Virus record (IMG/VR): IMGVR_UViG_3300005664_000061
Location: 1 to 27,252 of that record
Direction: 5' to 3' (one strand)
DNA: 27,252 nt
From: a virus
Made by a program: the position numbers and the translations under genes. Shown here piece after piece: positions 4,085-27,252 of the stretch; within the stretch, counting starts at the first letter, position 1; every line of letters starts with the position of its first letter. The notes under the pieces are model-generated. The model had not been told where the DNA came from. It worked only from the letters and a program-made list of their open reading frames with translations, and did no database searches.

Positions 4085-4567
4085 TTAATTAGCCTTTTTA
4101 ATGTAAGTCGTTGTTGAGTATAGATAAGCATCGTTAAAGATGCTGGTCCGTTTAATTATTTCCCACTCATTTTCGCAAAATTCAGGAAAATAAGCGTCTC
4201 CAGTAAATTCGGCGTTAATCTCGGTCAGAATCAGTTCATCGGCAATCCCTATGGCCTGCTGATAAATCTGGCCGCCACCAATAACGAATATTTTACCATG
4301 GCCATTAGCAGCTTTTAGGGCCTTGTCGAGCGAGTTCACAAAAAACAGATTAGGGCTTTCGCTTGGCTCTATTGATTTTGAGACAACGACATTTAGGCGG
4401 TTTGGTAGCGGCTTGCCAATGCTATCAAAGGTCTTGCGCCCCATGATCACGGCATGGCCGGTAGTGAGTTCTTTGAACCGCTTTAGCTCTGTTGATAAAT
4501 GCCAAGGCATCTGGCCGTTATTGCCGATAACTCGGTTTTTATCGTGCGCTGCAACAATCGTTATCAT
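4085..4567 (-). CDS. folA: Dihydrofolate reductase (EC 1.5.1.3)
   Basis: This 160-aa protein is the normal length of a bacterial DHFR, which reduces dihydrofolate with NADPH to keep tetrahydrofolate available for dTMP synthesis. The family motifs appear in order at nearly the same residue numbers as in E. coli: MPW at 20-22, acidic E27 in STELKRFK where E. coli has D27, IMGRKTF at 41-47, LPNR ending at R57, VIGGGQIY at 95-102 and T115 in LTEINAEF. I chose the ATG at 4567, which overlaps the upstream stop as ATGA; a TTG 15 bases further up is less likely. All key residues look intact, so an active enzyme is expected. What is odd is its position between two related fibre-like genes inside the tail operon. 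Confidence 0.95.
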   Translation of the reverse strand: MITIVAAHDKNRVIGNNGQMPWHLSTELKRFKELTTGHAVIMGRKTFDSIGKPLPNRLNVVVSKSIEPSESPNLFFVNSLDKALKAANGHGKIFVIGGGQIYQQAIGIADELILTEINAEFTGDAYFPEFCENEWEIIKRTSIFNDAYLYSTTTYIKKAN

Positions 4568-5400
4568 GCTCTGATTATCCAAAAATTCGGGTTAAATTTA
4601 ATGGTTGTTGCGTCAATGGCATTAGCTACATGCCATAAAACCCCCGTTGTTGTCACGGTTTCGGTTAGTAAGCCATTGGCGCCAAGGTACAGTTTAGCGC
4701 CAGTTGTCCAGCTCCAGCTAGTTTCCGTGATAAACCCGTTAATCAAAATAGACAGCGGTTGGCCAATGGTTGCGCCATTCTCGGTTAAGCCAATTAGTTC
4801 ACCGGCCCTTGCTGTATTTGAAACATCCGCATAGGTCGAGTCTGAAATGAAAACAACACGATGCCCGCTCAGGTTAGCGGCTGCGGTAATCTCAATTCGC
4901 TGACTGCCATCCGCCAAGCTGTCCGCATTCAGGAATGTGGGCGAGAAGTAGATTTTGGTTGCGGTGATTGCATCGCCAATCTTCCAAGCTGTGGCTGGTG
5001 CGGTTTGCGTCATTAGGCCGTCATCGCCCAGATATAAAGGCATTCCAGCAACCCAACTCCAAGTCGGATTAACCACAAGACCAGCTAAAACCACCCGCAA
5101 AGGCGCACCGTCCAGCGTAGCGGCTACGGTTAAGCCAACGGGGTTATTGATCTTAGTTGTTTCGTCCTTGTCAGCGTAGGCGGTATCAGCAAGCCAAATA
5201 ACACGAAAGGCGGTTAAATCCTGCTGGGCTGTGATTGTGTCGGTAATGACATCAACCAGCTCTAACCCTTCCGGTCCGCTGGCTGGAATGTTTCCAAGAC
5301 CTGTAACGCTGTTGCTGGGTGATGGCTGACCTTTCGGCCCATAGACATTATTTGCCGTTGCCTTGCCGCTCTGTGTGCCTTGTAGCGGTAAATAAGCCAT
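4564..5400 (-). CDS. Tail fibre-like protein with two tandem beta modules
   Basis: This 278-aa protein has an N-terminal linker of about 50 residues (MAYLPLQGTQSGKATANNVYG, then a proline- and glycine-rich stretch). Two related modules of about 100 residues follow, at 57-156 and 171-273. Matching elements are ITAQQDL / ITAAANL, FRVIWLADTAYAD / HRVVFISDSTYAD, TWSWVAGMPLYLGDDGL / SWSWTTGAKLYLGANGL, and ATKIYFSPTF / ATTIKFNPNF. This is an internal duplication of a beta-rich domain. The start follows the 242-aa gene by one base. Its 3' end overlaps the DHFR start. I infer a fibre or fibre-decoration role from the company it keeps. Confidence 0.75.
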   Translation of the reverse strand: MAYLPLQGTQSGKATANNVYGPKGQPSPSNSVTGLGNIPASGPEGLELVDVITDTITAQQDLTAFRVIWLADTAYADKDETTKINNPVGLTVAATLDGAPLRVVLAGLVVNPTWSWVAGMPLYLGDDGLMTQTAPATAWKIGDAITATKIYFSPTFLNADSLADGSQRIEITAAANLSGHRVVFISDSTYADVSNTARAGELIGLTENGATIGQPLSILINGFITETSWSWTTGAKLYLGANGLLTETVTTTGVLWHVANAIDATTIKFNPNFWIIRA

Positions 5401-16689: not shown

Positions 16690-17310
16690 ATGATTAAATT
16701 CATAAAGGAATTATTCTGCATGGATGATGACGAACTGCCGTCATACCATGACAGGCTGTTGGCCACCATTCCTAATGGCCTAATTGTTGGGGAAGATTTG
16801 GACAAGCTGAATGAACTGGGCTGCTTTGGTTCGTCTCCATTAAGCTACCGCATTGGCGAAGCATCGGTTGATTTTGCACTGGGAAAGTATTTTAAAACCG
16901 AGTCAATGAATAGCCACTTTCATCCAATCAGCTTAATGACAAAATCACCTCTAGTCATGCGTCAACACGAATCCAGTATTGTGCTGGAGCCGCAAGCGTT
17001 TTGCTTGGCATCTACCGCCAGCACTCTCTTTCTGCCAGACTGCGTTAGCGGCCTGCTACAGGTTCGCTCCAGTGCCGCAAGGGCTGGCGTTGAGCATTGT
17101 TATTCAGGGCTGATTGAGGCTGGCTTTAGTGGCAGTACTATTACACTTGAGCTAACCAATGCCCTTCAATATCATGCAATCCGAATCAATTCAGGTGAAA
17201 TGCTGGTGCAAATCGCCTTTTTTAAACACAAGAAAATCAACAAAAAACACCGTTATTCCGATTGCCAGTTAGGTTCTATCGGTCCCGTGCAGTCAAAAGG
17301 AGTTAGATAA
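16690..17310 (+). CDS. dcd: dCTP deaminase / dUTPase-fold protein
   Basis: This 206-aa protein matches the dCTP deaminase family, which converts dCTP to dUTP and feeds dTMP synthesis. The conserved core spans about 98-180: LEPQAFCLAST (usually ITPDSFVLA or similar), LQVRSSAARAG at 124-133, GLIEAGFSGSTITLELTN at 140-157 and INSGEMLVQIAFF near 167-178. R131 and E154 are 23 residues apart, the same spacing as R115 and E138 in E. coli Dcd. The family's usual DPGF turn reads EAGF here. The end LGSIGPVQSKG resembles the closing lid segment. The start lies one base after the previous stop. An active dCTP deaminase is likely, but a dUTPase-like or bifunctional activity cannot be excluded. Confidence 0.8.
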   Translation: MIKFIKELFCMDDDELPSYHDRLLATIPNGLIVGEDLDKLNELGCFGSSPLSYRIGEASVDFALGKYFKTESMNSHFHPISLMTKSPLVMRQHESSIVLEPQAFCLASTASTLFLPDCVSGLLQVRSSAARAGVEHCYSGLIEAGFSGSTITLELTNALQYHAIRINSGEMLVQIAFFKHKKINKKHRYSDCQLGSIGPVQSKGVR

Positions 17311-23249: not shown

Positions 23250-23434
23250 CCACTCACCACGTTCTGAATTATCGTCAACTCGCCTTTTGCTTGCAGCTTC
23301 ACCGCCTCAACTGTGGGCGATACATCATAATCAGACTCACCGCTGAACACGACCACGCTGTGGCGTTTTCCGGTTGTGCCTACTGCTACCCTTGCGCTTT
23401 GTATGGCCTTGCGCAATTCCTTGTCATTCAGCAT
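23246..23434 (-). CDS. 62-aa hypothetical protein
   Basis: The ATG at 23434 overlaps the end of the VRR-NUC gene by 11 bases. The product is small and mixed (KELRKAIQSARVAVG, then RHSVVVFSGESDYDVSPTVEAVKLQAKGELTIIQNVV), with a likely alternating strand and helix fold. No family is recognised. Overlaps on both sides support that it is translated. Confidence 0.6.
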   Translation of the reverse strand: MLNDKELRKAIQSARVAVGTTGKRHSVVVFSGESDYDVSPTVEAVKLQAKGELTIIQNVVSG

Positions 23435-23843
23435 TTACAATACCCCGCCATTCGTTAAAAGCGGCCTCTGCCGCATCCGCACCCAGTGCAACACACGCAA
23501 ACGCCCCTTGCTCTTGAGCCGTTCGAAGATAACTTAGCTGCTCGTCATCGATCTTGGATAATAGCGGATTTTGACGTTTGATTTCACACAAAAACGATAC
23601 CTGAGCTGGGATGATAATGTCTGGCGCTCCTTTGGTTAATCCCTCCATTTTCTCGCGCCGTATTTGCCCCATAGTACGCTTTCCTTCGTTTCGTACATGC
23701 ACAACCAGCCGACCAAACGTGTCGGGGTATTTCATGCGCATACGGTTAACGAAAGTCACTTGCTCTTGTGACTCCAGCGGGCAAATTCCCCTAAACTGCC
23801 AATCGCCGTAGCTCGGAATATCAATGGGCCTTTTCAATTGCAT
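23424..23843 (-). CDS. VRR-NUC domain nuclease
   Basis: This 139-aa protein is a stand-alone VRR-NUC domain, a PD-(D/E)xK-type nuclease fold. Key positions are E24 in ESQEQVTFVNRM, D75 in KGAPDIIIP and the E87-x-K89 pair in LCEIKRQNPL, followed by an SYLRTAQEQGAFACVALG helix and strand. VRR-NUC proteins of phages act on branched or flap DNA in repair and recombination. The ATG at 23843 lies only 3 bases from a perfect AGGAGG; a TTG at 23837 (MKRPIDIP) would have a better spacing of 9 bases and is a real alternative start. It overlaps the end of the helicase gene, so the two are translationally coupled. Confidence 0.85.
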   Translation of the reverse strand: MQLKRPIDIPSYGDWQFRGICPLESQEQVTFVNRMRMKYPDTFGRLVVHVRNEGKRTMGQIRREKMEGLTKGAPDIIIPAQVSFLCEIKRQNPLLSKIDDEQLSYLRTAQEQGAFACVALGADAAEAAFNEWRGIVNAE

Positions 23844-25629
23844 CTACCTCCTGATTGTATCCGTGAATCTTAAAAAACTCGGTGTCTTTGTTCTTTTGGT
23901 ATGTCACTGAATCTGGCATGACTGCTAGATCGTAAGTCGCCTCCATCAGTTGGTGATAGTCCGCACGTTGCCACGAATGGGGGCTTTGCGGATGAAACCA
24001 CGCCGAAAACTTCCTATATTCCGTCTTAAAATCCACCCGCAAAACCTCAAGCCCCGACTTCTGGGAAATGCTCGGGCGCTTGCTCCATTCTAAAACCTTG
24101 TCGGTTTGTAGTCTGGTTGGGTCACGTTTAAGCCGCTTAAACTCCATTGTCAGCTTTTCGTTAGGATCAACCAACTCATGCTTACAGTTGCAGCAATACC
24201 GCGCCGCAATATCGTTACTCGACTCACAAACTGGACAGGTTTTATCTGTCCACCTTTGGGCACATTGGTGATACACCCCATTGATGATCGCCATGTTTTG
24301 ACACCTGCGGCCATAATGTGCCGGAATTGGTCCTATATCGGTTTGGATTCTATTACCGTCCAAATCAATAAAATAACCCTCCTCGTCCACATCAAATCCA
24401 TCGTCATTCTTGCGTGCGCTGAACTGATTAACGCCGTTACACATGGGGCAAGTCACGCTCAGAATAACGGTTTCACCCTTGATCGCCGCCTTGATCATCG
24501 GCTTGAAGATTCGGCCATCTGGCGCATGTGCCGTCAGGTTTTCAGCATAATCCAGAATCAAGAAATTCTTTTTACCCTCGCATAACCGCATTCCTCGGCC
24601 TAAAATCTGCTGCAATAGGCTGGCCGACTCGGTTTTGCGTAGCAGAGCAATCACGTCAACATGGGGAGCATCAAAGCCCCTTGTCAGCGTGCCAACAGAC
24701 ACCAGATACTTAAGTTGCTGGTCTTTGAAGCGGTTGATGATGCTTGCCCGCTCGTTGGTGCTGGTATCGCCCGTGATTGACGCCGATATTAATGGTGGTA
24801 GGCTGGCTAGAATTTCTCCTGCGTGTTGAACGGTGGCCGCAAACAACATCACACCTTTACGGTTTTTGCTCTGCTCCACCACGTCTGCCACGATCTCGGC
24901 AGTTTTCCTGCCATGACCAACGAAGGCGCGATCTACGCTGGCACTAGTGAATAAGCCGTTTTTACCAAGCTCAAGCCCAGCTGTGTTGTAGCTGTCAGCA
25001 AGCGGGCTGCCGACATCTGGCGGGGTCAAGAATCCACGTTCTAACAGCCATTCAGCATCGTACCTACGAACGCACTTTAGATAAAAAGGGTCGGTGCATT
25101 GGTGCTTTGGCATTGGGCTATCATCGGTATCCAGCTGATAAATAAAGCCCGTACCCATGCGATACGGGGTAGCAGTTAAACCAACCACCCGCACATTGGG
25201 ATTAACAGCCCGACAATCGTTAATAATTTGCTTTATCTCGTTGGTGGTCTCGTGGCATTCGTCCACCACAATCAAGCCAACCTGAGCCGCGATTGCGCGG
25301 ATCTTGGTTTTAATGGATTTAGGACTAGCAAAAATCACCGTATGCCGTAGGTCTTTCTGATTTAAGCCAGCACAATAAATACTTGCCGGTTCGCCAGTGT
25401 GCAAATACTTGCTGTGATTCTGCTCCACCAGCTCTTTACTTGGCTGTAGCGCCAGAACTTTCTTACCGCTGGACTCCTTCACCAAATACGCCAAGCCAGC
25501 GACGATAAAGCTCTTGCCAGCACCAGTGCCAAGCTCTGCCATCACTGGATCGATGCAGCGCTTGATTTGAGTAAACAGCCCGCGAACGGTGTCCTCTTGA
25601 TAATCCCGCAGGTCTAATGGAATTTGCAT
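23821..25629 (-). CDS. radD: RadD-like superfamily 2 helicase with zinc-binding cysteines
   Basis: This 602-aa protein matches the bacterial RadD (YejH) repair helicase over its length. Residues 1-160 hold the Q-like region (LRDYQEDTV), Walker A GTGAGKS (34-40), DECH box (123-126) and TAT (152-154). Residues 180-360 include GFLTPPDVG, GVMLFAATVQHA, TRGFDAPHVDVIALLR and QILGRGMR (341-348), the arginine-finger motif. From 394 it carries C394/C397 and a cluster C443, C456, C465, C468, C479, C480, C482, the zinc-binding part seen in RadD. A C-terminal domain of about 100 residues follows. The ATG is behind AGGAG at about 8 bases. It probably processes recombination intermediates with the neighbouring nuclease genes. 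Confidence 0.9.
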   Translation of the reverse strand: MQIPLDLRDYQEDTVRGLFTQIKRCIDPVMAELGTGAGKSFIVAGLAYLVKESSGKKVLALQPSKELVEQNHSKYLHTGEPASIYCAGLNQKDLRHTVIFASPKSIKTKIRAIAAQVGLIVVDECHETTNEIKQIINDCRAVNPNVRVVGLTATPYRMGTGFIYQLDTDDSPMPKHQCTDPFYLKCVRRYDAEWLLERGFLTPPDVGSPLADSYNTAGLELGKNGLFTSASVDRAFVGHGRKTAEIVADVVEQSKNRKGVMLFAATVQHAGEILASLPPLISASITGDTSTNERASIINRFKDQQLKYLVSVGTLTRGFDAPHVDVIALLRKTESASLLQQILGRGMRLCEGKKNFLILDYAENLTAHAPDGRIFKPMIKAAIKGETVILSVTCPMCNGVNQFSARKNDDGFDVDEEGYFIDLDGNRIQTDIGPIPAHYGRRCQNMAIINGVYHQCAQRWTDKTCPVCESSNDIAARYCCNCKHELVDPNEKLTMEFKRLKRDPTRLQTDKVLEWSKRPSISQKSGLEVLRVDFKTEYRKFSAWFHPQSPHSWQRADYHQLMEATYDLAVMPDSVTYQKNKDTEFFKIHGYNQEVDAIEKAH

Positions 25630-25640
25630 GATGGCAACTC

Positions 25641-26462
25641 CTAACGGAATTGCCAGAATTCAGAACCACCTTTGCGGTACTGCTCTAAATCCACGGCCTT
25701 CGCGAACTCTTCCGCGATCTTCTTGTAATCAACGGAGCCTTGACGGGTAACCTTGCTCAGGCTTCGCCCGCAGATGATCGCCGGTTCGTTGTTAGCGAGT
25801 GCCTGTAGTTCCGCGATTATCTCTTTCTGGCGCTCGCTGGCGTTATCAACCGCAATTTTTAATTGGTCGTACTCATCAATCAGCATTTGCGCTTCTTGAG
25901 TGTCGATTGTGACTTTGAGCGGCTTTAGGTGTGGCTCAACATCTTCGTTGGCCAGTTCTTCTATGAACTGGTCAATATGGGGTAACAGCGCCTCTATGTA
26001 GTCCATATCAAGCTGCACCTTTTCGCTGCAACTTTCAGCTGGCCACCATTGGAAAAATACGCCCTCTTGCTTATCCATGACGAACAAAGACAGCTGTATC
26101 CGTGCAAACACGTCAGGCCGCTGGGCCAACTTCTTAAACTTCAGCATGTCGTTATCGCGCATGGAATAAGGCGCATACACGAATACGGGCAAGCCCTCTT
26201 TAGTGAAGCAATCGGCCTTGGCAATAAGGTTGCCTAGACTGAACTCTAACTCATAGTCCTGCGCCGTCTTGCCACTACAGAACGTCACATAATCATCAAT
26301 CGCTGCCGCCTTAAACTCACGCCCATACGCTGCCGCCGGATTGTCCTTAAACTCGATTGGGGCGTGCTCAAAGCGCCGGATAATGGCCCTCTTGGCCTTT
26401 TCCTTGGTAACGCCAGTGACCATGCCAAGCAGCGAAACAACTTCATAAACCGATATTTTCAT
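25641..26462 (-). CDS. Lambda exonuclease (YqaJ)-like protein, apparently lacking catalytic E-x-K
   Basis: This 273-aa protein starts at 26462 behind GGAG at about 9 bases. It follows lambda exonuclease closely in layout: AYGREFKAAAIDDYVTF with E49 (lambda E85), LIAKADC with D84 (lambda D119), a strand 10 residues later, PYSMRDNDMLKFKK (lambda CPFTSRDFMKF), FARIQLSLFV with Q123 (lambda Q157) and a final IDQFIEEL helix. In lambda the strand carries the metal-binding E129-x-K131, but here it reads PVFVYAP, with F94 and Y96. The C-terminal part (about 185-273) is an extra helical domain. It is therefore probably not an active nuclease on its own, unless another residue substitutes. It lies in a recombination operon. 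Confidence 0.75.
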   Translation of the reverse strand: MKISVYEVVSLLGMVTGVTKEKAKRAIIRRFEHAPIEFKDNPAAAYGREFKAAAIDDYVTFCSGKTAQDYELEFSLGNLIAKADCFTKEGLPVFVYAPYSMRDNDMLKFKKLAQRPDVFARIQLSLFVMDKQEGVFFQWWPAESCSEKVQLDMDYIEALLPHIDQFIEELANEDVEPHLKPLKVTIDTQEAQMLIDEYDQLKIAVDNASERQKEIIAELQALANNEPAIICGRSLSKVTRQGSVDYKKIAEEFAKAVDLEQYRKGGSEFWQFR

Positions 26463-26479: not shown

Positions 26480-26502
26480 AAAAAGCCAGCTTATTGCTGG
26501 CT
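26480..26502 (-). terminator. Intrinsic terminator with the DUF6378 stop codon in its loop
   Basis: On the minus strand, AGCCAGC and GCTGGCT form a 7-bp stem with the 5-base loop AATAA, followed by TTTTTAATC. The stop codon TAA of the DUF6378 gene lies inside the loop. It would limit transcription into the exonuclease-like gene unless readthrough or antitermination occurs. Confidence 0.75.
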
Positions 26503-26757
26503 GTTCTCTGTCAATGTCACTTCAACTAACCGAGTGTATCCTATGATGTCATGCCACGAATCGGCATACTCAGGGTCGCCATTCAAAATACGCCCGATTT
26601 TGTGGGCCACCATTTCGAGGGCCTCTTTTTTGTCATCACTCAAGCCTTCCCAATTATGGCTATCCTGCATGGCCCGTTTCAGGTTTTGCGTGATCCGCGC
26701 ATGTCCAGCAAAATCGCCGTAGCGCTTGCCGCGCTCTGTTAGTGTGTCGTCAATCAT
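26491..26757 (-). CDS. DUF6378 family phage protein
   Basis: This 88-aa protein is called at the ATG at 26757, which has GGAG 6 bases upstream; an ATG four codons earlier overlaps the terminator's T run and is less likely. The conserved core of this phage family is present in order: LTERGKRYGDFAGHARI (6-22), KKEALEMVAHKIGRILNGDPEYADSWHDIIGY (43-74). The YGDF, HKI-RILNGDP and D-WHD elements are the recognisable signature. The function of the family is unknown; it often lies among phage recombination and nucleotide genes. The protein is small, acidic and probably cytoplasmic. Confidence 0.75.
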   Translation of the reverse strand: MIDDTLTERGKRYGDFAGHARITQNLKRAMQDSHNWEGLSDDKKEALEMVAHKIGRILNGDPEYADSWHDIIGYTRLVEVTLTENSQQ

Positions 26758-26775
26758 AACCTGCTCCATAAAAAT

Positions 26776-26803: not shown

Positions 26804-27252
26804 TTAAAATGGGATTTCTTCGTCAATATCATCCGCCTCAATCTGTGGTGTTGCCGCCGCAACTGGTGCCGCCCGCTCAGCCCGTAGGCGAGCTTGGCGC
26901 TGTGCCGGTGTCTCAACTGGCGTTTGTGGCGCTGCCGTTTGAGTCGGTGCTGCGGCACTTCCGCCACGGACACGGGGGGCCACCTTCTTAATCCAGTTGA
27001 TGCCGGACTTTCCCGCTTCCTTAGTATCAAACAGGCCCAGTGTAAGCATCATGGGGCGGTTAATCAGCGCCTGAGCCAAAATGTTATCGTCTGGTGCTTG
27101 GCCGGTAGCCGCCACCTTGGCCATGATTTTACCGCCGCAGATGGTGTCCATAACCGCCAACATGGTTTTAGCTTTATCGGACACGCTGTCCTTTCCATCA
27201 CAGACCTTGAGCGTCTGGTAGACTTTGCGGCCAGCGTACTCTTTAGGCTCCA
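26804..27252 (-). CDS. SSB-like single-strand DNA-binding protein, partial (5' end off the right edge)
   Basis: The frame is open from the right edge with no start needed in the window; a GTG at 27184 is internal, since the frame continues upstream as EPKEYAGRKVYQTLKVCDGKDS. About 149 residues are visible. The N-terminal part and KSGINWIKKVAPRVRGG fit the phage OB-fold family that resembles DUF669. A flexible alanine-, proline- and glutamine-rich linker follows, and the protein ends in an acidic tail DDIDEEIPF, the hallmark by which SSB proteins recruit partners. It would bind single-stranded DNA and recruit the nucleases and helicase encoded downstream. The first part is missing, so the fold is inferred only. 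Confidence 0.6.
   Translation of the reverse strand, partial: EPKEYAGRKVYQTLKVCDGKDSVSDKAKTMLAVMDTICGGKIMAKVAATGQAPDDNILAQALINRPMMLTLGLFDTKEAGKSGINWIKKVAPRVRGGSAAAPTQTAAPQTPVETPAQRQARLRAERAAPVAAATPQIEADDIDEEIPF

Follow-up and report, generated by a model that had tools for sequence, protein, structure and literature searches.

A gene in the window, a 27,252-base fragment deposited as an IMG/VR virus record, encodes a protein of the YqaJ/lambda exonuclease family in which most of the catalytic residues have been replaced. We consider it likely that this protein is a pseudonuclease, kept for a non-catalytic, structural job in its recombination module. The ORF has an ATG start preceded by a GGAG ribosome-binding site, and the gene order is SSB, DUF6378-like ORF, Exo-like gene, RadD-like helicase, VRR-NUC. 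The gene thereby occupies the exonuclease slot of a module consisting of Sak4, SSB, Exo, RadD-like helicase, and VRR-NUC, of which the window contains the following parts:

26804-27252, minus strand: SSB, its 5' part cut off by the end of the window, with the C-terminal tip DDIDEEIPF
26491-26769, minus strand: small DUF6378-like (phrog_16943) ORF between the SSB and Exo-like genes
25641-26462, minus strand: predicted nuclease-dead protein of the lambda-Exo/YqaJ fold, 273 aa, from ORF reading, family profile, alignment, and predicted structure
23821-25629, minus strand: RadD-like SF2 helicase with intact GAGKS and DECH motifs
23424-23843, minus strand: VRR-NUC nuclease with intact catalytic E, D, and E-x-K residues

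Elsewhere on this tailed-phage contig, ORFs at 4085-4582 (minus strand) and 16690-17310 (plus strand) resemble, by eye, dihydrofolate reductase and dCTP deaminase.

The window protein belongs to the YqaJ/lambda exonuclease family by homology and by its core fold. On its own, it did not match the YqaJ model of Pfam and matched the PHROGs family "RecE-like recombination exonuclease" only partially; catalytic relatives such as those of H103 and VaS_L1 match the Pfam model strongly. Relatives with 24-33% identity to the window protein were found in 12 phage records. A profile built from catalytic members only matches the window protein with an E-value of 2.3e-62, and the family profile in turn matches LHK-Exo (3syy, E 5e-32) and lambda Exo (1avq, E 8e-20). 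The AlphaFold2 monomer model of the window protein has a mean pLDDT of 91.8, and VIA-align superposed 166-169 of its residues on lambda Exo (1avq) and LHK-Exo (3syy) with a Z-score of 16.2 at 3.0 Å. The initial annotation had read the protein as a lambda Exo homologue and had proposed a structural comparison as a check; profile match and predicted fold both bear this reading out.

The protein thus shares the PD-(D/E)XK core fold with lambda exonuclease (Red alpha; 1avq, 3sm4) and LHK-Exo, and the genes of its relatives, like those of these enzymes, adjoin recombinase and SSB genes, although the recombinase in the relatives is Sak4 rather than the Red beta of lambda. Unlike these enzymes, it carries an additional conserved domain of about 90 residues, present in active and dead members alike, which gave no confident match when searched alone against the PDB (best E 0.32):

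25644-25910, minus strand: conserved C-terminal domain, residues 185-273

Alignment to lambda Exo (NC_001416) places the residues of its active site and DNA channel at the following codons, with F94 and Y96 additionally read directly from the ORF:

26310-26312, minus strand: K51, at the position of lambda E85, a metal ligand
26211-26213, minus strand: D84, at the position of lambda D119, kept
26181-26183, minus strand: F94, at the position of lambda E129
26175-26177, minus strand: Y96, at the position of the catalytic lysine K131 of lambda
26157-26159, minus strand: R102, at the position of lambda R137, kept, which contacts DNA in the central channel (PMC7496540)
26100-26102, minus strand: R121, at the position of lambda Q157

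Three of the four residues of the core catalytic set (E85, E129, and K131) are therefore lost, and D119 is the sole survivor. The initial annotation had pointed to the missing E129-x-K131 pair, and the ORF and its codons leave no ambiguity: the segment reads PVFVYAPYS, and as the strand itself (PVFVY, residues 92-96) has no charged residue, no register shift restores E-x-K. An inspection of this column among homologues, suggested at the same time, showed that E85, D119, E129, K131, and Q157 are invariant across 57 non-redundant catalytic relatives. Of the lambda-Exo spacing described in the annotation, the assignment of D84 to D119 held, while those of E49 to E85 and Q123 to Q157 were each two residues off: the ungapped match of NPAAAYGREFK in the window protein to NVATEYGTFHE in its relatives puts E85 at K51, and Q123 corresponds to lambda Q159.

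The losses extend beyond the metal site. Besides Q157, the protein lacks W24 and R28, as the N-terminal segment that bears them and forms part of the 5'-phosphate pocket is deleted. A frameshift or wrong start concealing this motif was rejected, since no displaced copy of the segment was present in any frame of the 420 bases upstream. In lambda Exo, W24 and R28 hold the 5' phosphate, and the K131A mutant is inactive (PMC7496540). The case for a dead nuclease is thus stronger than first claimed, and we are highly confident that the window protein is nuclease-dead, a loss of activity predicted from the residues that are gone. Because losses of this class also occur in cultured isolates, a sequencing error is not the explanation.

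Active-site residues can migrate in the PD-(D/E)XK superfamily, and the protein could in principle still be a nuclease with a rearranged site, for example one combining D84 with a displaced E49, K82, K88, or E89. D84 is indeed kept, with K82, K88, and E89 near it. However, the E-x-K strand is uncharged, a lysine stands at the E85 position, the 5'-phosphate pocket is missing, and other dead lineages have lost different subsets of residues, some including D119, so that we regard this reading as highly improbable.

Catalysis has been lost more than once in this family. The relatives, comprising 80 from viral contigs, those of further scans, and phage records, number about 120 and were grouped into 84 clusters at 95% identity. 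The majority are catalytically intact, while the catalytic set is missing in nine of the 84 clusters: the window protein, those of Torfinnsbu, DDSR119, and L086 (all Pseudomonas-type), Proteus ZX7 (with which BCPPmi_001 clusters), ct7L0027, L033, L037, and L044. Cultured Pseudomonas and Proteus phages are thus among the carriers of dead forms. Outside the nine stands L042, in which D119Y is the sole catalytic change and which is more than 95% identical to an active relative.

In trees computed without the catalytic columns, the Proteus ZX7 protein joins active Vibrio phage proteins (support 100/99) and ct7L0027 joins the active L040 (98/97), placing both next to catalytic relatives and making their losses separate. 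The six deeply dead proteins require at least three changes on starred branches and form one clade in 0% of bootstrap trees. With all dead labels included, L042 among them, seven changes are needed, at least six of which are forced by supported branches. Independent loss of catalysis therefore occurred in no fewer than three deep events and in several shallow ones. The window protein groups weakly with the Pseudomonas clade (52/94), possibly through long-branch attraction; its end branch measures about 2.1 changes per site. The replacements also differ: the proteins of Torfinnsbu, DDSR119, ZX7, BCPPmi_001, and ct7L0027 share with the window protein the missing catalytic set and the module, but carry Y/F-x-R or E-x-R in place of the E-x-K pair. 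In contrast, the YqaJ exonucleases of Pseudoalteromonas phage H103, Vibrio phages pYD21-A and VaS_L1, and Alcaligenes phage CASP1, which have the same family, module slot, and C-terminal domain, retain an intact E-D-E-x-K site and the WFxAR motif.

Two further observations concern the wider family. In three dead groups, F or Y stands at the E129 position, which hints at convergence; as two of these groups are possibly sisters, this was given no weight. In addition, YqaJ-like domains occur in Erwinia, Pantoea, and Escherichia phage records (H42-H82) inside genes whose annotation is tail fibre, tape measure, or virion structural protein, a link also found in phrog_19855 that may represent fusion or misannotation.

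The most obvious rival to a retained function is plain decay, in which the exonuclease has become dispensable and its gene is drifting towards loss. The window protein sits on a very long branch, which would fit such decay, and the single catalytic change of L042, D119Y, may have arisen recently as a lesion or may be an error. The dead Exo genes of the Proteus pair, however, have a dN of 0.025 and a dS of 0.787, giving a dN/dS of 0.032, a sign of strong purifying selection that already disfavours decay for this lineage. Within the same pair, dN/dS is 0.020 for Sak4, 0.021 for the helicase, 0.053 for VRR-NUC, and 0.165 for SSB, and an active Exo pair from Vibrio phages gives 0.039. The dead pair L033/L037 likewise argues against decay, with a dN/dS of 0.22, as do the ORFs of the dead Pseudomonas clade, which remain full-length at about 50% identity, and the C-terminal domain and gene order, which are retained in every case. 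Decay is therefore quite unlikely, and the dead forms are likely selected for a non-catalytic role.

Searches of viral contigs with single proteins (the window protein and L006) and of genome contigs yielded no close relatives of the window protein. That it is itself under selection is suggested by an ORF that has stayed open and kept its C-terminus while evolving fast, with the dN/dS values coming from other dead lineages. Of the conserved positions, it keeps 72% in the C-terminal domain, 33% in the catalytic core, and 0% in the N-terminal motif. Residues common to every dead protein include R25, R29, E37, P98, Q138, W139, G242, Y246, and W270. The channel arginine R137 of lambda is an arginine in all dead members, with a lysine in Proteus; the other lambda channel contacts, R45 and K76, are unconserved, also among active members.

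The module is conserved around the dead genes. SSB, helicase, and VRR-NUC are present at every dead locus, and Sak4 at all of them except the window, which includes SSB but ends before the Sak4 position. Helicase and VRR-NUC are likewise present in all 69 active loci with enough flanking sequence, and the SSB C-termini are mostly IPF or VPF. No loss of VRR-NUC or helicase motifs was seen to accompany the loss of Exo catalysis. The genes beside dead Exo (among them dUTPase, DUF3850, Nmad5, and zinc-finger genes) included no shared replacement nuclease. The initial annotation had called the protein a paralogue, which does not hold: neither the 27-kb window nor the complete genome of Proteus phage ZX7 contains a second lambda-Exo/YqaJ homologue, none was found in 50 of the 53 kb of phage Torfinnsbu, and the position of the gene in the conserved module is that of the orthologous exonuclease. 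As a separate observation, Walker A of the RadD-like helicase is not always GAGKS: L037 has ASGKS, and 17 further helicases have AAGKS.

A partnership with the VRR-NUC enzyme encoded two genes downstream had also been suggested. In a strict form of this idea, VRR-NUC would depend on the dead Exo for its delivery or activation. The two belong to the same module, and the E, D, and E-x-K residues of VRR-NUC are kept beside every dead Exo, where sequence reaches. Next to active Exo, however, VRR-NUC is just as regularly found (69 of 69 loci) and just as intact, so that nothing singles out this partnership, and we consider it unlikely.

Near-identical genes in four contigs (L033:1847-2707, L037:3647-4507, L055:630-1493, and L085:2291-3151) diverge strongly across codons of about 76-180, the catalytic core. 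Two members of this group hold a non-catalytic core (R-x-Y, Q157R), and the same divergence is seen in active pairs too. In this group, the catalytic core looks like a cassette exchanged by recombination.

Another reading is that dead forms serve to inhibit or poison, through mixed trimers, the active Exo of other phages, whether co-infecting or resident. Active and dead cores do occur on near-identical gene backbones, as in L033 and L055, both from metagenome 3300022822. Mixed trimers of lambda Exo with K131A subunits do show reduced activity (PMC7496540). Yet deeply dead and active forms are only about 25-50% identical, which makes mixing doubtful, and the deeply dead forms keep their full module position, suggesting a role in their own module. 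We therefore judge poisoning very unlikely.

Under the preferred reading, a structural role for the dead protein, the gene descends from that of an active YqaJ/lambda-Exo exonuclease of the Sak4/SSB/Exo/RadD-like helicase/VRR-NUC module and has lost the metal-binding and catalytic E85, E129, and K131, together with Q157 and the 5'-phosphate pocket. The likely task of the protein would be to form a ring or clamp that encircles or caps the end of the DNA duplex and keeps SSB-tail-linked machinery in place there, with strands being processed by VRR-NUC, the RadD-like ATPase, or nucleases of the host. The active enzyme is a toroidal homotrimer; for the dead form, DNA binding, ring formation, and partner contacts are proposals only. 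A putative clamp or scaffold role is compatible with the kept R102, the retained C-terminal domain, and the surroundings of the gene in the module. A precedent is found in RecBCD, where the C-terminal nuclease-like domain of RecC is a non-catalytic PD-(D/E)XK domain retained for DNA handling, forming a hoop for single-stranded DNA (PMC1185551). RecC belongs to a different branch and works within a large complex, however, while the window protein is encoded by a stand-alone phage gene whose relatives show repeated losses. We found no description of phage pseudonucleases of this sort in the openly licensed literature.

In the usual picture of two-component recombination in phages, the single strands made by an exonuclease are passed to an annealing protein. 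The exonuclease partner described here stays under strong selection even in lineages in which it is not expected to cut. Tentatively, and with slightly less than even confidence, we propose that the lambda-Exo-type exonuclease of this module has repeatedly given up catalysis to become an essential clamp or hoop for DNA ends in the module, with resection catalysis being optional and the ancestral main task structural. What the exonuclease ring adds besides cutting, and who resects the DNA in these phages, thereby become testable questions. Labels such as "exonuclease" or "RecE-like" in phage records, including those of Torfinnsbu and ZX7, may mark proteins that are not nucleases.
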